This document shows positions 935 through 17,465 of a stretch of 64,000 nt of DNA, piece by piece (positions within the stretch are counted from its first letter, which is position 1; each line of letters opens with the position of its first letter). Source of the stretch: an uncultured bacterium (GTDB taxonomy: Bacteria > Edwardsbacteria > AC1 > EtOH8). The stretch lies in NCBI GenBank assembly GCA_937863685.1, contig CALMGM010000013.1, forward strand, positions 1 to 64,000, written 5' to 3'. The translations under genes and the position numbers were made by a program. The notes under the pieces are model-generated. The model ran no database searches and had not been told where the DNA came from. It was given only the letters and a program-made list of their open reading frames with translations.

Positions 935-1849
935 CTACCCGTCCTTACGCATCTGCTCCACCAGTTCCTTCAGCACCTCCTCGGCCTGCTCGGCCGGCAC
1001 CTGGCAGGTCCCAACCTTGTCATGCCCGCCGCCGCCGTACTTCAGCATCAGCGAGCCCACCTTGGTCTGGGAGGTCCGGTTGATAATGCTGTGGCCCACC
1101 GCGAACACCACGTTCTGCTTCTTGAGACCCCACATCACCCGGATGGATATGTTGATCTTGGGGAACATCCCGTATTCCACGAAGCGGTTGCCGCTGGGGA
1201 TCTCCTCCATCTGGCGCAGGTCCACCACCAGCACCTTGTCCTCCACCCTGGAGTGGCTCTTGATCATCTCCTTGTACATCCACTCCGACTCGTGGTAGCG
1301 CTTGACCCGCTCCCTGACGTCCGGCTGGTCCATGATCTGTTCGATGCTCATGGTCCGGCAGTACTCCATCAGGTCCTGCATCAGCTGGAGATTGCTGATC
1401 CGGTAGTCGCTGTAGCGGCCCAGGCCGGTGCGGGGATCCATCACCACCGCCAGCAGCAGCCAGCCCCGGGGCTCGGCCACTTCTTCGATGGTCAGGTCGC
1501 CGGAGTCGGCCTTGTCCACCGCGGTCATCATGTCGGTGAATCGGGGGAACTTGTCGGCCCCTCCGTAATGCTTGTAGATCACCCGGGCGCAGCTTTTCTC
1601 CGGGCTGGACCAGCCCTTGTAATCGGCCGGAAAGGCCTTGCGCTCCTGCTCGGACATGTGGTGGTCGAACCACATCCCGCAACCCTTGGCGTAGGGCACG
1701 TTGGCCAGCACATCGTTGGCCGAGACCTCGATCTTGCCGTCCTGGACGTCCTTGGGATGGGCGAACAGGAAACTGTCGATGATGCCGGCCTCTTTCAGCA
1801 GGACGCCGCAGATCAATCCGTCGAAATCGGAACGTGTTACCAGACGCAT
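935..1849 (-). CDS. DHH-family phosphoesterase
   Basis: A 304-residue protein with the DHH superfamily signature: an early DFDG motif (residues 8-11, metal binding), the DHH motif at about 62-64, and a C-terminal glycine-rich GGGGHDKVG stretch like the substrate-binding DHHA1 domain. Relatives are nanoRNases/pAp phosphatases (NrnA), cyclic-di-AMP phosphodiesterases or exopolyphosphatase-like proteins, acting in the cytoplasm with Mn2+. The ATG has AGGTGAATT upstream. It interrupts the A-B ATPase gene pair. The family is secure; the substrate (short oligoribonucleotide, pAp or polyphosphate) cannot be decided from sequence. Confidence 0.88.
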   Translation of the reverse strand: MRLVTRSDFDGLICGVLLKEAGIIDSFLFAHPKDVQDGKIEVSANDVLANVPYAKGCGMWFDHHMSEQERKAFPADYKGWSSPEKSCARVIYKHYGGADKFPRFTDMMTAVDKADSGDLTIEEVAEPRGWLLLAVVMDPRTGLGRYSDYRISNLQLMQDLMEYCRTMSIEQIMDQPDVRERVKRYHESEWMYKEMIKSHSRVEDKVLVVDLRQMEEIPSGNRFVEYGMFPKINISIRVMWGLKKQNVVFAVGHSIINRTSQTKVGSLMLKYGGGGHDKVGTCQVPAEQAEEVLKELVEQMRKDG

Positions 1850-4060: not shown

Positions 4061-5161
4061 TTACATAGCAAGCCTGAAACCGAGACAATAACTGGCATTT
4101 ACTGGAGGAACAAAACGACGGGCCGTGCCATACTGATAAGAATACCTAAGGTCATACCACGAGCCGCCGCGCGATAAAAAATCACCGGTGGCAGGGCCAC
4201 AAGGATTGACTGTTGGGCTTATGCTATAATAAGCGCTTTGGTATAAATCGTTTACCCACTCTAACACGTTACCTGCCATGTCATAGGCACCGCATGGACT
4301 TATATCCAAGCTGAAGAATCCTACCGGTGAGCTATATACAAAAGTATCCGGGGATGCATTGTAACAACTATTACATTTCGCGGCATCCCATATATTGCCC
4401 CAGGGGTAGTACTGGGCATCGGTTCCACGGGCGGCTTTTTCCCATTCAGCCTCGGTTGGCAGGCGTCCCCCAGCCCATTGGCAGAATGCATAAGCTTCAT
4501 ATTTGCTTATACAAACCACCGGGTGATTGGGAAAAGCAGGCCCGGCGTTGTACTCCCCAGTTGACCAGTAACCAGGTTCCGTTATATTGTGGTCCTTACG
4601 CCATACCCACCCTTCAACGCTCCAATAGGTACTATCACTATAGCCCCCAGCATCTATAAATACATTATATTGACCGTTGGTAACTTCGTACTTGCCAATC
4701 TTATACGCATTGAGGGTTACCAAATGCTGCGGCAGTTCATCAGAATAGTATCCCGGGTCGCTGGTCGTGCTACCCATGAGAAAATCACCGGATGGCACAT
4801 CAATCATTTCCATGACAAATGCCATCAAGGCAATATTAGCTGTCACCGTCCGATCGACCACGACCGTTACAGAAGTTGATTTCTTGCCGTAATAATTTTT
4901 ATAAGCCGTGACCTTATAATTTCCGGGTGATAGGTTCGCTATTGTGTATTTGCCATTTGCATCGGTTGTCGTTGTGTTTGTTCCAGGGGAGATGGTAAGA
5001 AACACCCCAGGTAATGCAGCATTATTATCAGCATTTGTAATTAGACCGCTTATTGTTCCAGTATTAGTAGCAATTAACGGGTTATCCTTGCTGCACCCCG
5101 TCAAAACAAGGCAGACTGTCAAAATATAATATATCCCTCTTAATTTTGATTCTCTATCCAT
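4061..5161 (-). CDS. Lipoprotein with carboxypeptidase-regulatory and FGE-sulfatase (SUMF1-like) domains
   Basis: A 366-residue predicted lipoprotein (start MDRESKLRG, with GGAG seven bases before the ATG; lipobox VLTGC). After the cysteine comes a carboxypeptidase-regulatory-like beta-sandwich (about 30-110; TISGLITNADNNAALPGV, GKYTIANLSPGNYKV). Then follows a formylglycine-generating-enzyme/sulfatase-modifying domain: MIDVPSGDFLMGS, YEVTNGQYNVF, RLPTEAEWEKAARG, YPWG, DMAGNVLEWVND and a final CLGFRLA. Bacterial proteins of this type are often structural or C-type-lectin-like rather than true sulfatase activators. It lies in the lower-G+C insert between atpF and atpA. TTGCTATG/CATAGCAA forms a perfect palindrome over its stop codon (4053-4071). 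Confidence 0.88.
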   Translation of the reverse strand: MDRESKLRGIYYILTVCLVLTGCSKDNPLIATNTGTISGLITNADNNAALPGVFLTISPGTNTTTTDANGKYTIANLSPGNYKVTAYKNYYGKKSTSVTVVVDRTVTANIALMAFVMEMIDVPSGDFLMGSTTSDPGYYSDELPQHLVTLNAYKIGKYEVTNGQYNVFIDAGGYSDSTYWSVEGWVWRKDHNITEPGYWSTGEYNAGPAFPNHPVVCISKYEAYAFCQWAGGRLPTEAEWEKAARGTDAQYYPWGNIWDAAKCNSCYNASPDTFVYSSPVGFFSLDISPCGAYDMAGNVLEWVNDLYQSAYYSISPTVNPCGPATGDFLSRGGSWYDLRYSYQYGTARRFVPPVNASYCLGFRLAM

Positions 5162-5251
5162 TATAGTACTCCAAATATAATATTTCTGGAAGTCTATGAT
5201 AGAGCCTAAATCCTGGCGCAAATTGATTAAGACAGATGTATACACAGAATG

Positions 5252-5325
5252 TTCATTTCAGCTTGACGTAGAACCCGATGGCCTGTTTGACCAGCTTGGA
5301 AAGGCAGGTCTCGCCCGACTCCACC
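5252..5325 (-). pseudogene. Duplicated 3' end of atpF (remnant)
   Basis: These 74 bases match 68 of 74 bases of the genuine atpF 3' end at 8206-8279. In frame they read ESGETCLSKLVKQAIGF then YVKLK and stop, against ESGEAYLSKLVKQAIGF in the intact gene. Upstream the similarity decays and hits an in-frame stop within about 15 bases. The two copies are direct repeats that bracket the 918-residue secreted-protein gene, so they record how that segment entered the operon. Confidence 0.85.
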
Positions 5326-5349
5326 GCCCTTCACCCCCCAAGGAAATGA

Positions 5350-8106
5350 TCACTTAATGATAACTGCTTTTGTTTTCATCTGATTTTCACCAGATTCAAT
5401 ATGTATCAAATATACACCGGAAGAAACTTGATACCCCATCTCATTTTTACAATCCCATAATTCATCATGGTTGCCCCATGCAACTTCTTTATATTGGAAC
5501 GTTCTCACTTTTTGCCCAAGTATATTATAAATATAGATTTTTACTGGAGACCTTTCCAACAATGCATATCGAATCGTCAGAGATTCTCTTGATGGATTCG
5601 GGAAAACCTTGACGGCAAATAATCTTTCAATTTTTGGCCGGGGATCAACATCTAAATCCCATTGAACAATTTTCCCATAAATATCTGACCCTTTGTGACG
5701 TCTATTATCAGACCAAGCAAAAATAATATTATCCAAATTGCATGCAACACTGTTTGAAGAAGAGAATTGATGCCACCATCCACAGGAATCATCATTAACC
5801 ACCACATTCGTTCCGACAAGCTTGCCCCAACAATCTATTTTCTGAGACATGATTTCGGGATCCCCGTCGCTTTCCCTATAATCGACCCAGGTAATAATAC
5901 TTTTCCCCGTGGGATCCATCGCTATTGCCGGGAGCCAATTTGTGTCCTTACTAAAATCATCATTTATCTTTATATTTTGCCCCAGAGGCCCGTCAAAATC
6001 ATCATACAATTGGGCATAAATATCCATTCCGTTATTCCGATTGTCCATCCAGGTTACACCAAATGAACCGTCGGACGCCATTGCGATCGATGGCATAAAT
6101 GTGAAACCATTTTCATTATAGTCATTTGCCGTAATCCAGTCACTCAGTGGCTTCCCGGCGGCATCATATCGGCGCACAATAATGTCATAGTGATGATCAT
6201 TACAATACATGCATGCAATGCAAAATGAACCGTCAGCTGCCATAGAAACGGTGGGGTACATGCCATCAGAGATCGCAATGTTTATATCCGATAACATTGT
6301 GCCGGTACTGTTGAACAACCGATAATATACTTTGGCGCCCTGCCATACAGCAACAAAAACTCCTTTACCCGAAGATGCCACATCTGGCCGGCCTTGATCA
6401 GTAATATCAGAACCGTCATTGACTTTGATATTGTTGCCCTCTGCGGCACCATAACTGTTGAAAAGCTGGCAATAAATGTCACTTTTTCCATTCCGGTAGT
6501 CTTCCCATGCTATACAGATAGTGCCGTCATCCGACCAGGATGAGGCAGAATTGTATTGATTTTGTGTGGTGGTGTCATCATTAACTTTATAATTACTGGA
6601 AACCGTCGTGCCGTCATTATTATAAAACTGGCAGTAAATATCAGCATTCCCGTTTCGGCAGTCGTCCCAAGCTATACAATGGCCGCCTGCGGCAGAGATT
6701 GAAACACAGGGATATCCTTGGTTGCTGGTGCCGTCATCATCATTCAGCTTCTGGTTGGCTCCAATCGGCAAACCACAACCATCATACATTTGAGAGTAAA
6801 AATCCCAATCTCCGTTCCGTTTATCCCACCAGGCCATGCAAAATGATCCGTATTTATTCATTGATACAGCGGGATAACCAACGTTATATTGTGCCGCAGG
6901 TTCACTGACGATAAAGTTTGCCCCGCTGGGGATGCCAAGTGAGTCGAATAGTTGTGCATTGATATTATATGCGGTGTCATAACCTAGCCAAGTCACGCAA
7001 CAACGTCCATCGCCAGACATTGAAATGTCATGCTCATAGGTCGGCCCCCCATTATTTCCGACCTGGTTGATTTTCACGTTATTCCCTATCGAATTGCCAT
7101 CACTCCGGTATCTTTGCAGGTATATGTCCCCATGACTATTGCGAAGATCTCCCCAGGCAATGCAGAATTCGCCGGAATCCGAACTGGCAATGGTTGGATA
7201 TTCTTGATTGCTCGTGCCGGTATCGTCATTTACCTTAAAATTGCCCGAAAGTGGATTATCCAAAGAATCCATGATTTGCGCATAAACATCATTGTTTCCG
7301 TTTCTTTGATCCATCCATGTAATGAAAACATCGCCATTTGACGACACTGCTAAGTCGGGAGTTGTCTGAATACTGGTACAAGTATTATCATTCACCCTCT
7401 TATTCGCCCCCACGGGACAACCGTTGTGGTCATACCTTTGATAATAAATGTCAGCATTCCCGTTGCGCATATCTCCCCAAACGATGCAAATATCCCCCAT
7501 ATCCGATTGCGCTATTTGTGGGCAGAATTTTCCGGAAGAATCAATGTCGTCATTGATCTTAACATTCCCTCCCAAGGTTTTGCCGGTAGGATCATATCGC
7601 TGCATATAGATATCGTCATTTCCCGTGCGTTCATCACTCCAGACAATGATGAAAGCCCCCGTTGGGGATATCGTAATTGACGGATTTTGTTGATAGCTGA
7701 CGCCGGCATCATCATTGACCCGAAAGCTATTGCCCTTCTGACTGCCGTTTGCAAAATAGCATTGAGCATAAACATCGTATGTACGATCTTCTCTCTCCGT
7801 GCGAACAACAATAAAATCACCATTATCAGCTAATGCAATGTGAGGATCGAATTTATCAATATAACCACCGGTGCTATCAGCATTAATTAAAAAATCATTT
7901 TTTACAACACTTCCAATATTGCTAAAAGTGTTTCGCCCAATCCGATTCTGCAATATAGCACGATTATTTACCGGGGTATCAATCTTACAATTGCTGATAT
8001 CCGCAGAAAAAACTGTTGTAAATCCAATAGCTTTATTTTCTTGTCCTTGCGTTAATCCGGCAATTACAGCAATAATTAACAAACCGTAAATTATTTTAGC
8101 ATACAT
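5350..8106 (-). CDS. Secreted 14-repeat propeller-like protein with T9SS/FlgD-type C-terminal domain
   Basis: A 918-residue exported protein with a signal peptide (residues 1-21, IIYGLLIIAVIAGLTQG). From about 90 to 800 there are 14 repeats of roughly 50-55 residues built on G-x-[FIC]-x-[IV]-[TA]-W-x-D-x-R-N-G-x-x-D-I-Y-x-Q, each followed by a G...KVNDD segment; this looks like beta-propeller blades. The C-terminus (about 830-918) begins VFPNPSRESLTIRYALLE, contains VKIYIYNILGQKVRTF and ends SGVYLIHIESG...KAVIIK, the pattern of type IX secretion (type A) sorting domains. It is surface-exposed or released. Cysteines recur at blade strands (FCIAW). G+C is clearly lower than in the ATPase genes. 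It is inserted immediately downstream of atpF. Confidence 0.88.
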   Translation of the reverse strand: MYAKIIYGLLIIAVIAGLTQGQENKAIGFTTVFSADISNCKIDTPVNNRAILQNRIGRNTFSNIGSVVKNDFLINADSTGGYIDKFDPHIALADNGDFIVVRTEREDRTYDVYAQCYFANGSQKGNSFRVNDDAGVSYQQNPSITISPTGAFIIVWSDERTGNDDIYMQRYDPTGKTLGGNVKINDDIDSSGKFCPQIAQSDMGDICIVWGDMRNGNADIYYQRYDHNGCPVGANKRVNDNTCTSIQTTPDLAVSSNGDVFITWMDQRNGNNDVYAQIMDSLDNPLSGNFKVNDDTGTSNQEYPTIASSDSGEFCIAWGDLRNSHGDIYLQRYRSDGNSIGNNVKINQVGNNGGPTYEHDISMSGDGRCCVTWLGYDTAYNINAQLFDSLGIPSGANFIVSEPAAQYNVGYPAVSMNKYGSFCMAWWDKRNGDWDFYSQMYDGCGLPIGANQKLNDDDGTSNQGYPCVSISAAGGHCIAWDDCRNGNADIYCQFYNNDGTTVSSNYKVNDDTTTQNQYNSASSWSDDGTICIAWEDYRNGKSDIYCQLFNSYGAAEGNNIKVNDGSDITDQGRPDVASSGKGVFVAVWQGAKVYYRLFNSTGTMLSDINIAISDGMYPTVSMAADGSFCIACMYCNDHHYDIIVRRYDAAGKPLSDWITANDYNENGFTFMPSIAMASDGSFGVTWMDNRNNGMDIYAQLYDDFDGPLGQNIKINDDFSKDTNWLPAIAMDPTGKSIITWVDYRESDGDPEIMSQKIDCWGKLVGTNVVVNDDSCGWWHQFSSSNSVACNLDNIIFAWSDNRRHKGSDIYGKIVQWDLDVDPRPKIERLFAVKVFPNPSRESLTIRYALLERSPVKIYIYNILGQKVRTFQYKEVAWGNHDELWDCKNEMGYQVSSGVYLIHIESGENQMKTKAVIIK

Positions 8107-8206: not shown

Positions 8207-8530
8207 TCATTTCAGCTTGACATAGAAACCGATGGCCTGTTTGACCAGCTTGGAAAGATAGGCCTCCCCCGACTCCACCACCCCGCCCTTAGGAACCGGG
8301 AACGGCAGGATCACCGGCAAAGCCCGGGTCTTGATCAGGCGGTTGATGTCATCCCCCAGGTCCCTGCCCAGGTCCTGGTTGACCGCTATCATGCCGTAGC
8401 TGTCGCTCTTCATCAGCTCCAGCACCTTGCTGCGCATCTCATGAATGTCGGCCACCTCGTGGGTCTCGATGCCCGCCATCCGGAATCCGGTGGCAGTGCC
8501 GGGGTCGGTTATCACGGCTAATCTTTCCAT
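8207..8530 (-). CDS. atpF: V/A-type ATPase subunit F
   Basis: A 107-residue protein starting MERLAVITDPGTATGFRMAG, the typical N-terminus of the small central-stalk F subunit, followed by SYGMIAVNQDLGRDLGDDI (the counterpart of ..GIILITE..IAE) and PVILPFPVPKG. Length is right for the family (about 100). It sits four bases after the preceding roadblock-like gene, with AAGGAAAG in that gene's tail as the likely ribosome site. A second, degenerate copy of its last 25 codons lies at 5252-5325. Subunit F lines the rotor axis with D and regulates ATP hydrolysis. Confidence 0.92.
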   Translation of the reverse strand: MERLAVITDPGTATGFRMAGIETHEVADIHEMRSKVLELMKSDSYGMIAVNQDLGRDLGDDINRLIKTRALPVILPFPVPKGGVVESGEAYLSKLVKQAIGFYVKLK

Positions 8531-8533
8531 ATT

Positions 8534-9082
8534 CTATTTGATTGCTTTCCTTATTTGTTCGGCCATCTCCTTGGCCTTGTCCGGCCCGGTGATCATCAGG
8601 GCCGCCTTCTCCAGCCCGGCGGCCAGTTTCTCCAGCTGGTCCGGCTGGGGGTTCTTCTCGTCCAGCCCGGCCTGCTTGATCTGGATCATCAGGGCGGTGT
8701 CGGCGAAGTCGGTCAGGTATTCGGTGGCTATCTTCCGCACCTTTGCCATCACATCCCCGGTCCCGGCGGCCGGGCCGTCGGTCGGTGAGGCCAGGGCTTT
8801 ATCTATGAAATTTATAGCCGCGGATATGTCCGGATTCTGGTCCAGTATCAGCCCGGCCTGCCCCTGGGAGGTTATCTTGGTGACAAAAGTTCCCTTCCCG
8901 GTGCTGACCCACAAGGTGTCCAGCGAAGACAGCCCGACGATATCGTATATCTGCCTGGCGAACTGGGCGCTCTCTACTATGCCCCCCTCGTCTCCGTGGT
9001 ATTGGCAAGCGCCTGATTTGTCTATTGCGAAAGCCGCCTTCTGGCCGGCCAGCTTGGTTTTTAAGGCTTCATTTAACGACAT
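8534..9082 (-). CDS. Roadblock/LC7-like cytoplasmic protein (182 aa) in the ATPase operon
   Basis: Start chosen at MSLNEALKTK because its ATG overlaps the TGA of the preceding gene (TGATG). No signal peptide or membrane segment. Residues about 15-95 follow a roadblock-like alternation: FAIDKSGACQYHGDEGG, then a helix (ESAQFARQIYDIVG), then strands TLWVSTGKGTFVTKIT and GQAGLILDQN, then a helix. The C-terminal half (about 105-182) is helical and Lys/Glu/Ala-rich, with FADTALMIQIKQAG and ITGPDKAKEMAEQIRK. I do not know a named family for it. It is translationally coupled to the next roadblock-like gene and to atpF. Confidence 0.75.
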   Translation of the reverse strand: MSLNEALKTKLAGQKAAFAIDKSGACQYHGDEGGIVESAQFARQIYDIVGLSSLDTLWVSTGKGTFVTKITSQGQAGLILDQNPDISAAINFIDKALASPTDGPAAGTGDVMAKVRKIATEYLTDFADTALMIQIKQAGLDEKNPQPDQLEKLAAGLEKAALMITGPDKAKEMAEQIRKAIK

Positions 9083-9384
9083 CACAACTTCCTCCTTACC
9101 TCGGCAGAGATGCTCTTCCAGTTGGCCTTGGCATCCAGCTCGCACAGGACGGTCTTATCGGAGGACATCACCATCAGCACCTGGCGGTCCTTCCCGCTGA
9201 CCGCCACTTCTTTGACCTCCCCCAGATTAAGATTGTTGGATATCACCGAGGCGGCGTTGAACCAGAACTGCTCTATCTCCGAGGCCTTTTCACCCAGTTT
9301 CCCCTTGGCCGAGCCGGACACCTGGCTGTCGTTGACGTAGACCGCATAGCCCAGCACCCCTTTGATGCCGGTTAGATCTTCCAT
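9082..9384 (-). CDS. Small roadblock/LC7-domain-like protein (100 aa)
   Basis: A 100-residue soluble protein whose pattern fits a single roadblock/LC7 domain: LTGIKGVLGYAVYVNDSQV (the GVxGaxVxxxDG strand), a central helix (ASEIEQFWFNAASVISNN), then EVKEVAVSGKDRQVLMVMS and KTVLCELDAKAN (the paired strands) and a C-terminal helix. AAGGAGGACGGTACG precedes the ATG. The gene overlaps the next one by one base. Roadblock proteins are dimeric scaffolds that usually partner small GTPases or membrane complexes. Here the neighbours are V-ATPase genes and multi-pass membrane proteins. Fold assignment is by pattern only. Confidence 0.72.
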   Translation of the reverse strand: MEDLTGIKGVLGYAVYVNDSQVSGSAKGKLGEKASEIEQFWFNAASVISNNLNLGEVKEVAVSGKDRQVLMVMSSDKTVLCELDAKANWKSISAEVRRKL

Positions 9385-9420
9385 CGTACCGTCCTCCTTA
9401 AAATTTGGTGATCCGGCGCG

Positions 9421-10032
9421 TCATTTCACCAGATGGAGCCATTCGTACACCAGGAAATGCAGGCGGCCGATCAGCAGCGAGATGCGGGCCATCACGGTGT
9501 ATCCGAACGAGGCCCCGAAGGCCACCATGATGAAGACCATTCCCAGTCGGGCCCCGTGTTTGACGACGCCCTTGTGGGCGATGGAAAAATAGAAATAGAT
9601 CAGGGTGGCGATCACCCCTATCACCATCAGGATGTTGTCGAAGTTGTTCAGCGGGACCAGTGTGCCCCGGATCTGCGGCAGAAGTATTCCCTGTATCTGC
9701 CCGGTTATGCCCAGGCCGGCGGCGATGCCCACCGTCAGGGCGATGGACCAGCGGGACAGCCAGGATATCTTGGGGACCCAGCGGGCCAGCATGATCAGGC
9801 CGAAGGCCGCCGGGACCAGCAGGATCCATTTTTCGGCGCCGTGCTCGGCCAGGAATTTTTCGTACAGCAGGGGCTTGACGTCGAAATACAGGGTGTAGAG
9901 GATGGCGTAGGCGGCCGACACCCCCACATAGAGGTGTTCGGCGAACTTGTAGAAAGGGTTGTCCTTGTAGAGGAATGAGAATATGGCCAGGGTCAGCCCG
10001 GCCGCTATCCAGGTCCCTATTATCTGCATCAT
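9421..10032 (-). CDS. Six-TM membrane protein, ATPase-associated module (203 aa)
   Basis: Start chosen at the ATG at 10030-10032, which overlaps the stop of the upstream gene (ATGATG over TGA); a longer in-frame extension exists but only reads through the other gene in another frame. The 203-residue protein begins MMQIIGTWIAAGLTLAIFSF and has about six hydrophobic spans (roughly 5-20, 30-48, 70-88, 95-112, 130-148, 160-185). It contains the short conserved-looking segments YKFAEHLYVGVSAAY and LARWVPKISWLSRW. I do not recognise a family name. It is translationally coupled to the 274-residue gene upstream, so the two products probably work in one membrane complex. Confidence 0.8.
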   Translation of the reverse strand: MMQIIGTWIAAGLTLAIFSFLYKDNPFYKFAEHLYVGVSAAYAILYTLYFDVKPLLYEKFLAEHGAEKWILLVPAAFGLIMLARWVPKISWLSRWSIALTVGIAAGLGITGQIQGILLPQIRGTLVPLNNFDNILMVIGVIATLIYFYFSIAHKGVVKHGARLGMVFIMVAFGASFGYTVMARISLLIGRLHFLVYEWLHLVK

Positions 10033-10853
10033 GACTGTTTCCTCCTTCTGATCACGAAATAGCCCAGATTGCCGATGATGATGAAACCCAGCAGCAGCAG
10101 GTGGGCATAGGACTGGGCCACCATCCCGGCGATGCCGGTCCCGGGGTGGCTGACCAGGGTCTCGTATTCGGCCGCGCCCTGCAGGCCGCCCACCAGGCCC
10201 CTGATCTGCCTGGCCTGCATGTAATGGAACATGTCCGGGGCGATGACCCCGGTGGCCCCGATTATGATGTTCAGCCCATAGCGGGCCCCGGCGAACTGGA
10301 TCCACTCGTCGCCGGCCTGCCCGGCCTCCAGGCCCACCAGCAGGTCGATGTCGTTGTAGTTGTGGATGCCCTGCATCAGGGGGATGCTGTCGACCGGGGT
10401 GCCCCGGTAATCGCTGGCGAAGAAATCCCGGATCTCCCGCCCCATACCCACCATCTGGGCCCGGTAGCCCGGGCGGTAGCCCAGATTGACGTAATCCACC
10501 CCGTACCGGGCCTTGAACAGGGGGGCGATCTCGTTGAGCCCGATCTCGCCGAACGGCAGGCCCAAAGCCCATTGTCCCAGCAGCACCACCTTGTGCTTTT
10601 TGGAAAAGGCGTGCCTCAGGGTGGCCAGCAGCATCGGCTGGATCTCGGGGGCCGAGGAGGCGTCGTAATCCACCGAAAAGAGGATCACCGAGCCCTCCGG
10701 CAGGCTCTCGATGGCCTGGTAGGCCGACCTCACCGGCTCGGAGAGGTTGATGGGCAGCACCAGTTTGAAAAGCAGCGGGATCAGCACCACCACGAACAGC
10801 AGCAGGTAGATGATCCGGCTGTCTATGTTGGCGATCTTATCGAAAACTTTCAT
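10029..10853 (-). CDS. Membrane-anchored protein with extracytoplasmic-type central domain (274 aa)
   Basis: An N-terminal membrane span (about 14-35) is followed by a soluble region of about 200 residues and a C-terminal span (about 248-266) ending in the basic tail FVIRRRKQS. The soluble part has alpha/beta character: VILFSVDYDASSAPEIQPM, HKVVLLGQWALGLPFGEIGL, a RYGVDYVNLGYRPGY segment and DLLVGLEAGQAGDEW. A GLNIIIGATGVIAPDMFHYM stretch precedes the last helix. I cannot name the family. GGAGACGATGCA precedes the ATG, and the stop overlaps the next start. Together with the 390-, 210- and 203-residue neighbours it forms a compact membrane module set inside the V-ATPase operon. Confidence 0.8.
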   Translation of the reverse strand: MKVFDKIANIDSRIIYLLLFVVVLIPLLFKLVLPINLSEPVRSAYQAIESLPEGSVILFSVDYDASSAPEIQPMLLATLRHAFSKKHKVVLLGQWALGLPFGEIGLNEIAPLFKARYGVDYVNLGYRPGYRAQMVGMGREIRDFFASDYRGTPVDSIPLMQGIHNYNDIDLLVGLEAGQAGDEWIQFAGARYGLNIIIGATGVIAPDMFHYMQARQIRGLVGGLQGAAEYETLVSHPGTGIAGMVAQSYAHLLLLGFIIIGNLGYFVIRRRKQS

Positions 10854-10876
10854 TGCATCGTCTCCTTAACACCTTA

Positions 10877-11509
10877 TTAAGTAAGGTAGGTTCTTTCCAG
10901 GCCCAGGATGACCCGGAGAGACATGGCGATGGTCCCCAGCGCCACGCCGATGAAGATGCCCCGCTTGGCCGCCATCTGGGGGACCTCCATTATCCATTCG
11001 GCGCCGGCCGGCAGCCAGTGGGATATCTGGGCCCCGATGGGAACCCGGCCCAGCATCACCAGAGCGGCGGTTATCAGAAGCAGGGTGGCCTCCAGGGTCC
11101 GGGCCCGGAAGGCCCGGTAGGCGGCCGAGGCGATGAAGAAGGCCAGCAGGGAGAACATGGTGGCCTGCAGTGGGATTATGAAGTAGGTGTAGACGTACAT
11201 GAAAGATGAGCCCAGGCTCAGCAGCGATTCGCTGGTGGCCCAGGTGTAGATGCCGGCGGCCATGGTCCCCAGAAAACCCAGGATCAGCACCAGGGCGAAA
11301 GGCCAGCCCGGGGATTTGCGGATTATCTTCTGGATGTTGCTGCGCAACAGGCTGTCCATCCCCAGCAGCAGGGTGAACCCCAGCACGATGGAATACCACA
11401 GCAGCAGCCTCTGCTGCATGGTCCCCAGCGGCTGGTGGGGTATGAAAAAGGTGACGATTATTATCAACCCGGTGATGAAGGTGATGGCCAAGGGTATTTC
11501 TTTTTTCAT
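10877..11509 (-). CDS. Multi-pass membrane protein, ATPase-associated module (210 aa)
   Basis: About six hydrophobic spans (near residues 7-25, 35-52, 70-90, 100-128, 138-155 and 182-200) make this an integral inner-membrane protein. Small conserved-looking features are IPHQPLGTMQQRLLLW after the first span and LLGMDSLLRSNIQK after the second. No catalytic motif is evident. AGAGGAGATGTAAA gives a strong ribosome site, and the gene is 22 bases after the DUF6754-like gene and 23 bases before the 274-residue gene, so it is clearly part of the same transcription unit. Function unknown; probably a subunit of the membrane complex encoded here. Confidence 0.8.
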   Translation of the reverse strand: MKKEIPLAITFITGLIIIVTFFIPHQPLGTMQQRLLLWYSIVLGFTLLLGMDSLLRSNIQKIIRKSPGWPFALVLILGFLGTMAAGIYTWATSESLLSLGSSFMYVYTYFIIPLQATMFSLLAFFIASAAYRAFRARTLEATLLLITAALVMLGRVPIGAQISHWLPAGAEWIMEVPQMAAKRGIFIGVALGTIAMSLRVILGLERTYLT

Positions 11510-11531
11510 TTTACATCTCCTCTGCCGGCTT

Positions 11532-12704
11532 CTATCCGGTCATGAACCAGCTTTTGATGGCCTGGAAGACGTTCATCATCCAGGGGTTTCCCGCATTGTT
11601 CAGGATATATCCCACCGTGCCCCAGACGGCCATCAGGGCGAACCCGATTATCAGGAAGGCCTTGACAAAATCCTCTCCCTTGAGGCTGCCCAGCAGCTGG
11701 GGATCCTTCTTGAGGTAGCAGGAGGCCGCCAGCATCTCCTCGCCGATCAGGGTGTAGTCGCAGGAGGCGATGAAGAACGGCAGCTGGGTGATGGCGGTGG
11801 TGCCGGCGATCTGGATGGCTCCGATGGAATGGCCGGTCTCGGACATCAGCAGGGCCTCGGCATAGAAGTAGCCCATGAAGAACACCGCCCCGGGCTTCTG
11901 TCGCAGCATCATCCCGTCCACCCCGGCGGCGTAGCCGAACTGGTCGGAGGTCAAAAAGCTGACGTTGCCCTCCTTGTACAGGTCGGGCCGGCCCGGCTCG
12001 GAATAGGCCTGCTGCACCGTTTCCTGGGCGGCGGCCATCACCAGCGGGTCCCAGTTGGGGACCAGCAGCTCGGTGCCGTGCTGGGCGCAGCGCACCGCCA
12101 CCTGGCGCAGGATGGCCAGGGCCGCCACCGTCACGATGTCCTTGATCTCGCCCAGCCCGAAGGAGAACATGATGGGCTTGCCCAGTTCGGTGGAGCGGCC
12201 CACCGCCTCGTCCACCGCATCCAGTCCCTGGATCTTGCGGATGAACAGCTCCTCGCCTTTCTTGGCCCGCTCTATATACCAGATGATCAGGAAGCACAGG
12301 ATCACTGTCAGGATCATCACGTTGGTCCGGCTGCTGTCGAACCACTGGGCGGTGGCCTCAGCCGGCCCGGCCGCTGCCGGGTCCGAGGTGTCGGGGCCGG
12401 CCACGGCCCTGACCCGGTAAAAATAGCTCCGGTGGCCCTCCACATTGTCACGGAAATCGGTCTTGCCGCCGATGACGAAGCCCACCTCGGCAAAAGGTCC
12501 GTTGGCATTGTCCGACCGCAGGATCTGGTAGCCCTGAAAAGCGGTGGCATCACCCTGGTCCTGGGGCGATCTTCCCCAGTTGACGGTGATGGAGCTCCCC
12601 TCGTCGTTGGGAGTATCCCCCGCCTTGACATCGGCTGGGGGGTCCAGGGCCCGGCCCGGGGCCGCCAACCAGACCAGCATCAGCGCCATGAATAATTTTT
12701 TCAT
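11532..12704 (-). CDS. FN3 plus DUF6754-like membrane protein (390 aa)
   Basis: The protein has a signal peptide (1-19, ending APGRA), then a fibronectin type III domain (about 20-115: VKAGDTPNDEGSSITVNW, GYQILRSDN, SYFYRVRAV), then a membrane span (about 128-146, MILTVILCFLIIWYIERA). A cytoplasmic or membrane-embedded domain of about 200 residues follows (ELFIRKIQGLDAVDEAVGRS, GKPIMFSFGLGEIKD, VPNWDPLVM, AGVDGMMLRQKPGA), and a final span lies near 350-370. The large domain resembles what is catalogued as DUF6754; I am fairly but not fully sure of that number. It follows atpC by 46 bases and opens the six-gene module. Biochemical role unknown; the FN3 domain suggests an extracytoplasmic docking face. 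Confidence 0.78.
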   Translation of the reverse strand: MKKLFMALMLVWLAAPGRALDPPADVKAGDTPNDEGSSITVNWGRSPQDQGDATAFQGYQILRSDNANGPFAEVGFVIGGKTDFRDNVEGHRSYFYRVRAVAGPDTSDPAAAGPAEATAQWFDSSRTNVMILTVILCFLIIWYIERAKKGEELFIRKIQGLDAVDEAVGRSTELGKPIMFSFGLGEIKDIVTVAALAILRQVAVRCAQHGTELLVPNWDPLVMAAAQETVQQAYSEPGRPDLYKEGNVSFLTSDQFGYAAGVDGMMLRQKPGAVFFMGYFYAEALLMSETGHSIGAIQIAGTTAITQLPFFIASCDYTLIGEEMLAASCYLKKDPQLLGSLKGEDFVKAFLIIGFALMAVWGTVGYILNNAGNPWMMNVFQAIKSWFMTG

Positions 12705-12750: not shown

Positions 12751-13788
12751 CTAGACCATCAGCAACTGATGCCGGATGTCCTCGGCGGGAAGCCCGTAGT
12801 GTTTAGCCCTGGCGATCAGCCTTAAATTCACCACCTCAAAATATTTCTGCCATAAAAAGCCCACCGCCACCTCGATCCCCAGGGGATCGCCCTTATAGGA
12901 CTGCGCTTTCCTCTGCCAGTCATCCCGGTCCAGCTCCTCCTCGCCTCCGCCCTCACGGCCTCCGGGGACCAGCATCCGGTGCAGGAAGGTCCCCTTGACC
13001 GAGCGCAGGGCATTCTTGGATTCCCGGGGGTCCAGCAGGGCAGTGTATTTTTCCAGGGTCAGCAGCCGGCCGCCCGGCAGATAGTACTTGACCGCCTCCG
13101 GCAGGCCGGCCTTCTCCCGGGCCATCAGGCGGCGGAGGGATTTGGCGTTCAGCAGGTCGATCTCGCGGCGCAGCAGGTCGCGGACCAGGCCCCGGTTGCG
13201 GTCCCAGCCGGCCAGGTCCTTAAGGGACTGATAGTAGTAGAACTTGTCCAGAACCAGTTCCAGATCGGCCAGATTGTGGTCTTTTTGGTATTCCGGCATG
13301 GCCCTGGTCAGGGGCACCGCCAGGTCGTCCCCCCAGGTGGCCAGGGTGTCGGAAAGCTCCCGCAGGTCGGTCTTGCGGGTCAGCTCGGCCAGTTTCACCT
13401 TGTTCAGGCTGCCGGCCGGCATCACCGCCCGGAGGATCTCCTCGGCCTCCCAGCGGTTATGGATCCCCCGGATCACCGCCTTGACATTCTCCAGGTCCCA
13501 TCTCCGGAGCAGGATCCCGATCAGCTTGTTGGGCCGGCCGTCGGATACCTTCTGCATCAGCCGGGCCGAGGCGTTGAAATTGGCCGACAGGGCCTCCTCG
13601 GCGGCCGCCAGACCGGAGTACCTGGTCTGGGCCTCCTGCCATTCCCGGGAATAGGGGCTGGAGGCCAGCCACTTGGAAAAGGCCTCGAAGCCCGGCAGGC
13701 TCAGCAGTTCCTCGAAAGCCCCCGGTTTAAGCAGCCGGCTGTGCTGCCCTTTTAGCCTGGCATTGATGTAGCCGAAATCGCTGGGCAT
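12751..13788 (-). CDS. atpC: V/A-type ATPase subunit C
   Basis: A 345-residue all-helical protein of the size of archaeal/bacterial C (AC39-type) subunits. The N-terminus DFGYINARLKGQHSRLLK matches the usual Y-x-x-ARV-x-x...LL start, LIGILLRRWDLENVKAVIRG matches the characteristic R-x-x-ElxNLkxilRg segment, and a second copy of that logic appears near IEVAVGFLWQKYFEVVNLRLIARAKHYGL. C is the socket that joins the central stalk (D/F) to the K ring. It is separated by three bases from atpE. Confidence 0.93.
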   Translation of the reverse strand: MPSDFGYINARLKGQHSRLLKPGAFEELLSLPGFEAFSKWLASSPYSREWQEAQTRYSGLAAAEEALSANFNASARLMQKVSDGRPNKLIGILLRRWDLENVKAVIRGIHNRWEAEEILRAVMPAGSLNKVKLAELTRKTDLRELSDTLATWGDDLAVPLTRAMPEYQKDHNLADLELVLDKFYYYQSLKDLAGWDRNRGLVRDLLRREIDLLNAKSLRRLMAREKAGLPEAVKYYLPGGRLLTLEKYTALLDPRESKNALRSVKGTFLHRMLVPGGREGGGEEELDRDDWQRKAQSYKGDPLGIEVAVGFLWQKYFEVVNLRLIARAKHYGLPAEDIRHQLLMV

Positions 13789-17096: not shown

Positions 17097-17465
17097 TTAA
17101 TATAAAAGGTTTTTAAATTCTTCCGCGGCCTTTCTCATCTGCAGCCGGGCCATGCCCAGGTTCCCGGAGCCTTGCTGCAGGATTGCGCTCAGGTAGAAAT
17201 CCGTACCCACCAGTTTTATCAGGATTATCAGTTTCTCGGTGGCCACCGTCTGCTCGGCAAGGCTGCCCATCTCCAGATTCTCGGCTGCCCGCCTGGCGGC
17301 CGAAAGCATGGTGGCAAACTCGGCATCGGCCAGGGTGGGGTCCAGTTCCAGCCCGGCCTGGTAAAATGATATCCCGATGCCGTCGGTCCCGGTAAGGCTG
17401 GCGCACAGGGCCCCCGGGATATTGTCCGCCATCTCCTTGAGCCTTGGTTCATAACCCTGGTTCAT
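17097..17465 (-). CDS. Roadblock/LC7-domain protein heading the ATPase core
   Basis: A 122-residue soluble protein with a clear roadblock/LC7 arrangement: LKEMADNIPGALCASLTGTDG (helix then the GAxxaslxgxDG strand), a long central helix (AEFATMLSAARRAAENLEMG), then the strand pair SLAEQTVATEKLIILIKLVG and DFYLSAILQQGSGN, and a final helix ARLQMRKAAEEFK. GGGAGCAGACG precedes the ATG. It is 14 bases upstream of the H/G subunit and is therefore co-transcribed with the ATPase. It is the most convincing of three roadblock-like proteins in the operon. Confidence 0.82.
   Translation of the reverse strand: MNQGYEPRLKEMADNIPGALCASLTGTDGIGISFYQAGLELDPTLADAEFATMLSAARRAAENLEMGSLAEQTVATEKLIILIKLVGTDFYLSAILQQGSGNLGMARLQMRKAAEEFKNLLY

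Follow-up and report, generated by a model that had tools for sequence, protein, structure and literature searches.

A membrane module in the V/A-ATPase operon of Edwardsbacteria and its kinship with a seven-gene MutL/c20/DUF6754 system

In a 64,000-nucleotide stretch of an uncultured Edwardsbacteria genome (the window), six genes, here called A to F, lie on the minus strand between the genes for subunits C and F of a V/A-ATPase (atpC and atpF). We find that the first four are, with very little doubt, a paralogous copy of the membrane half of a widespread system encoded in the order c28-MutL-c20-A-B-C-D, and that the conserved core of the block is these four genes, not six. The six genes are a spare module borrowed by a proton-pump operon, not parts of the pump. 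The best overall explanation, to which we assign a probability of about 0.5, is a multi-module machine with shared MutL and c20, one set of which resides in the ATPase operon. The block and its flanks are laid out as follows.

12751–13788, minus strand: atpC, V/A-ATPase subunit C/AC39, upstream flank (PF01992, E 2.9e-56)
11532–12704, minus strand: gene A, a signal peptide, FN3 domain, transmembrane segment, DUF6754 Rossmann-like domain (predicted cytoplasmic) and transmembrane segment (PF20539, E 7e-108)
10877–11509, minus strand: gene B, polytopic with about six transmembrane segments and a conserved AAYRAFRAR motif (alignment of 34 homologues, hydropathy, locus adjacency)
10029–10853, minus strand: gene C, a Rossmann-like alpha/beta domain between two transmembrane segments, predicted extracytoplasmic (AlphaFold2 model, positive-inside count)
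9421–10032, minus strand: gene D, polytopic with about six transmembrane segments, overlapping C (alignment, hydropathy, sequence)
9082–9384, minus strand: gene E, a small roadblock-like protein (Robl_LC7, E 0.029; paralogue, E 7e-4; alignment)
8534–9082, minus strand: gene F, a putative roadblock-like N-terminus and a conserved C-terminal helical domain (homology to F of the MutL locus)
8207–8530, minus strand: atpF, V/A-ATPase subunit F, downstream flank (PF01990, E 3.9e-17)

An earlier sequence-only reading of the window had described six tightly spaced genes, native to the operon, where atpF would normally follow atpC directly, and all of this holds. The gaps from atpC to A, A to B and B to C are 46, 22 and 23 nucleotides, C and D share an ATGA stop/start overlap, D and E are 36 nucleotides apart, E and F overlap in TGATG, and F ends 3 nucleotides before atpF. 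The G+C content of the six genes (57–63%) is like that of the flanking atp genes (58–66%), and the spacing is operonic; the block is native, not inserted, and is co-inherited throughout the Edwardsbacteria family. The closest named match of gene A, at 89% identity, is likewise from Candidatus Edwardsbacteria (L031). In other bacterial V/A-ATPase operons atpC and atpF are contiguous (L149, L151, L152, L154). Because it is conserved across genomes, the layout is far beyond chance.

Iterated profile searches yield about 40 loci, from Edwardsbacteria, Zixibacteria, WOR-3, Latescibacterota and other families, in which the order A-B-C-D is strictly kept, and the same order recurs in a second, independent set of families; B adjoins A in nearly every sampled locus. 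The co-occurrence check proposed with the earlier reading thus finds A–D linked rather than scattered, mostly in genomes without any V/A-ATPase, and finds the E/F pair confined to the Edwardsbacteria family. At the MutL locus the order c28-MutL-c20-A-B-C-D, in which c28 encodes a small protein, is repeated in unrelated families, with an occasional rearrangement to ABCD-c28-MutL-c20. We define the seven-gene system by A-B-C-D adjacent in this order, as in the window, and by c20 and a long MutL in the same genome, which here lie at G000:C5:399406-402423. The window genome holds four A-D sets: besides the window copy there are two in tandem and a further one at the MutL locus. Most genomes encode a single c20 and a single MutL but one to seven A-D sets (DUF6754 copies reach seven).

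Several neighbours of these loci recur. In about ten loci (L139:14346-14876 and nine others) c28 is directly preceded by a gene for a small membrane-domain protein with no Pfam match, which may be an eighth component. The gene for the glycine cleavage P-protein, gcvPB, lies just upstream of the seven-gene operon and lplA just downstream in several families (L041, L112, L126, L128, L130, L134; L127, L131). The tandem pair of the window genome (L040, G000:C2, 7454-17382) sits between Pyr_redox_2/ferredoxin genes and a gene for a DAO-type FAD oxidoreductase, an arrangement seen in two genera.

Coupling between DUF6754 and the partners was measured in two samples, one of 61 genomes (22 DUF6754 carriers and 39 non-carriers) and one of 290 genomes of 90% completeness or more, most of the 61 among them. 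DUF6754 occurs in 85 of the 290, a share within a sample of relatives and not a prevalence across all bacteria. We find c20 in 82 of these 85 genomes (the exceptions are G068, G086 and G211) and in 1 of the 205 others, where the match is marginal; the Fisher p of 1.5e-67 is uncorrected for relatedness and only illustrates the strength of the coupling. A single-sequence search of the 61 genomes gives c20 in 21/22 carriers and 0/39 non-carriers. The MutL family is also present in 21/22 carriers (carrier G016 has no match; G039 has a partial one with a divergent c20 beside it), with strong GlmL-like matches in two of the 39 non-carriers that are shorter, 455–503 versus about 610 residues. MutL-c20 fusion proteins of about 860–1030 residues are encoded in seven carrier genomes (L105-L111); their host genomes also have the separate genes, and the fusions do not adjoin A–D. 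The seven-gene system is absent from 14 well-known control genomes. A phyletic coupling this close to perfect singles out a definite group of partners for purification or joint structure prediction.

The MutL-like partner aligns over its whole length to PF13941, the family of the glutamate mutase accessory protein MutL/GlmL, and its ASKHA phosphate and adenosine motifs are invariant, which supports ATP binding. It differs from GlmL in being longer, in being encoded with membrane proteins and sometimes fused to c20, and in scoring 226.6 bits against the NCBIfam equivalog cut-off of 475. The c20 protein combines a barrel-sandwich domain, with weak RnfC_N and Biotin_lipoyl matches, and a C-terminal stretch weakly similar to KOW proteins; by eye its hairpin has no carrier lysine, and no cysteine is found among its invariant or near-invariant columns.

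Gene A is a full member of PF20539 (360 bits versus a cut-off of 27, residues 118–361), a family without known function whose linkage to B, C, D, c20 and MutL is undescribed in the literature searched. Both the FN3-plus-DUF6754 assignment and that of gene C as a soluble domain flanked by single spans agree with the earlier reading. The AlphaFold2 model of A has a predicted local distance difference test (pLDDT) score of 90, that of C a pLDDT of 93.7 and a predicted template-modelling score of 0.87; in Foldseek searches A returns FN3 matches alone, and C only generic Rossmann folds at low TM-scores. Among PDB sequences no credible relative is retrieved by the profiles of B, C, D, c20 or MutL, and that of A matches only FN3 domains; B and D have no database relatives at all. 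Positive-inside counts over the alignments predict opposite topologies, the A domain cytoplasmic and the C domain extracytoplasmic, and the two models have secondary-structure elements in matching order. A homology of B and D was also considered and rejected, the profile comparison not being significant. The length of A ranges across loci from about 258 to 943 residues, and its extracytoplasmic part varies. Gene D has three invariant residues, E32, Q120 and R183; the last of these, and H251 and N262 of C, are polar residues conserved within hydrophobic stretches, and would suit an interface or path inside the membrane.

The two small proteins fare differently from the claim that both are roadblock-like. 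Against a curated Robl_LC7 cut-off of 23 bits, E reaches 14.6 and its longer paralogue, encoded at this genome's MutL locus, 19.7, a weak likeness to the MglB-like Roadblock/LC7 family; F, homologous to the F of the MutL locus, has no Robl_LC7 match and is only a putative roadblock protein. No partner small GTPase is seen within the block. The ATPase operon of the family begins with another weakly roadblock-like gene (window 17097-17465; Robl_LC7, E 0.0013).

We find A–D in the atpC-atpF slot in 9/9 genomes of the Edwardsbacteria family in which the slot lies on one contig; in a tenth the contig ends at atpC. Outside the family A–D were never found in an ATPase operon and the slot is empty. 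Single and concatenated A–D gene trees agree in placing the ATPase sets of genera g1–g3 and of genus g4 in different clades (support 99–100). The g1–g3 sets group together as the sister clade of non-ATPase sets from WOR-3 and Latescibacterota, and the g4 ATPase-embedded sets fall within the MutL-locus clade (support 100% in each A–D gene tree); across the four trees the sets exchange no members. The g4 MutL loci lack A–D. E and F follow A–D in the g1–g3 ATPase loci and are absent from those of g4, and longer forms of both are encoded at the MutL locus across the family. Because the g1–g3 and g4 sets belong to different clades, one slot has been filled by two paralogous A–D lineages, via relocation or replacement. 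This argues against a single accident, though alone it is no proof of physical interaction, and the ATPase link looks selected but lineage-specific. The earlier idea of a machine tied to the ATPase accordingly survives in part: the module is co-inherited and kept at the ATPase family-wide, but the unit is A–D with MutL and c20 as partners, not a six-gene complex around the ATPase.

Gene content, order, coupling, the paralogue history and, as models, the folds of A and C are established, and on them we build the following proposal. A–D would form one membrane complex, with the Rossmann-like domain of A on the cytoplasmic face and its FN3 or other variable domain outside, the Rossmann-like domain of C outside, and B and D as the membrane core. 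A single cytoplasmic MutL-like ATPase and c20 would energise several interchangeable A–D modules; ATP hydrolysis would drive the machine, the variable parts of A and C would set the substrate, and the ATPase-embedded set would be a specialised module expressed together with the pump. That one MutL and one c20 mostly go with several A–D sets, and that the extracytoplasmic part of A varies, suggests interchangeable modules with different specificities, and by analogy with energy-coupling factor (ECF) transporters, which share one energising unit, such modules hint at an ATP-driven transporter or translocator, a mechanism that we put forward tentatively. The likeness, one cytoplasmic ATPase/adaptor pair serving several membrane sets, is one of analogy only: the ATPase here is ASKHA and not ABC, and no S-component, EcfT or ABC-type ATPase match to Pfam or NCBIfam is found among A–D, c20 and MutL. 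Bolder, and in our view rather doubtful, is the suggestion of a hitherto undescribed class of membrane machines driven by ATP, in which an ASKHA-fold (MutL-like) ATPase takes the place of an ABC or rotary one, with paired Rossmann-like domains on opposite faces, two polytopic proteins and interchangeable sets, one of them coupled in Edwardsbacteria to the rotary V/A-ATPase.

Several points weigh against the multi-module machine. For none of the parts is a transporter fold, a substrate or an activity known, and the PDB holds no relative of B or D; profile comparison of A and C, full length or trimmed, gives no significant homology; and the structure models are of single chains and give no proof of an A–D complex. 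The genes for MutL and c20 do not adjoin the ATPase-embedded copy, so that these proteins act on it is an inference, and a single MutL for several sets would also fit a role in assembly or maturation.

Among the alternatives, the one that survives best, though we consider it somewhat unlikely, is that A–D are a generally useful membrane module that has settled as a passenger in a well-expressed operon without physical link to the ATPase. The occurrence of other A–D sets in unrelated contexts (MutL locus, flavin oxidoreductase genes, tandem arrays) speaks for this, but a slot kept over four genera and filled by two set lineages is more than one accident would produce. It is less probable that A–F are a dedicated V/A-ATPase accessory or regulator in the phylum, A–D binding Vo and the roadblock proteins regulating assembly or coupling. 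The exact slot in all nine testable family genomes, its filling by two different paralogous sets, the coupled translation and the further roadblock-like gene at the head of the operon speak for it; yet 10/12 DUF6754 carriers outside the family have A–D without the V/A-ATPase C subunit (AC39), L149, from the outside carrier whose ATPase locus is intact, has contiguous atpC-atpF, and E and F are missing from the ATPase copies of g4. Outside the family no association of DUF6754 with the V/A-ATPase is found (2/12 versus 10/39, p 0.7), and A–D do not behave as core subunits, present wherever the V/A-ATPase is and only there. The Thermus-type V/A-ATPase operon is the host of the window copy; A–F are absent from the V/A-ATPase operons of other bacteria and are not subunits. 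The ATPase-operon copy gives a handle on whether a machine of this kind can act on a rotary ATPase or be driven by one.

It is improbable that the system is a redox-linked or ion-translocating membrane device: c20 matches RnfC_N (E 3e-4), and in two genera the tandem A–D locus has Pyr_redox_2, Fer4 and DAO genes on its flanks, but c20 has no conserved cysteines, A–D show no apparent cofactor motif and the oxidoreductase neighbourhood is not general. The likeness to the Rnf complex is this weak RnfC_N barrel match alone (21.2 bits versus 25.6). More remote still is a system for glycine cleavage, lipoate metabolism or B12-mutase reactivation with the membrane part secondary, which the kinship of MutL with GlmL, the flanking gcvPB and lplA genes and the weak lipoyl-like match of c20 bring to mind, and which the MutL score far under the GlmL cut-off (226 vs 475 bits), the missing carrier lysine and the extra A–D sets away from gcvPB and lplA oppose. 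As for an anti-phage defence system, a PADLOC search returned no match at E 0.01.

Because the c28-MutL-c20-A-B-C-D set could be placed in none of the known systems considered, we regard it as new as a system. As the earlier reading supposed, no complex of this composition appears to have been described, and the literature searched (subscription literature outside its reach) holds no mention of DUF6754/PF20539 or PF13941 systems. Its novelty is that of a system undescribed as such, its function being inferred. A system in 85/290 sampled genomes by the DUF6754 marker, yet undescribed in that literature, marks a large gap in what is known of bacterial membranes.

The surrounding operon and the rest of the window genome have further features. 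No F-type subunit a is found in the window genome, which had prompted the idea that the V/A-ATPase is its sole rotary ATPase; this is ruled out by a second, divergent V-type cluster (L159, G000:C3:30000-49999) with matches to A, B and I, D nearby and no AC39. A gene with a DHHA1 domain (DHH phosphoesterase-like; window 935-1849) follows atpA directly and precedes atpB/atpD in this family, as also in L044, L047 and L054. Finally, atpF and atpA are parted at window 4061-8106 by two low-G+C genes (42–45% versus about 61%), one for a secreted BNR/Por_Secre_tail protein and one for an FGE-sulfatase/CarboxypepD_reg protein; because in G002 (L047) only about 150 bp lie between atpF and atpA, this pair seems to have entered the ATPase operon recently.

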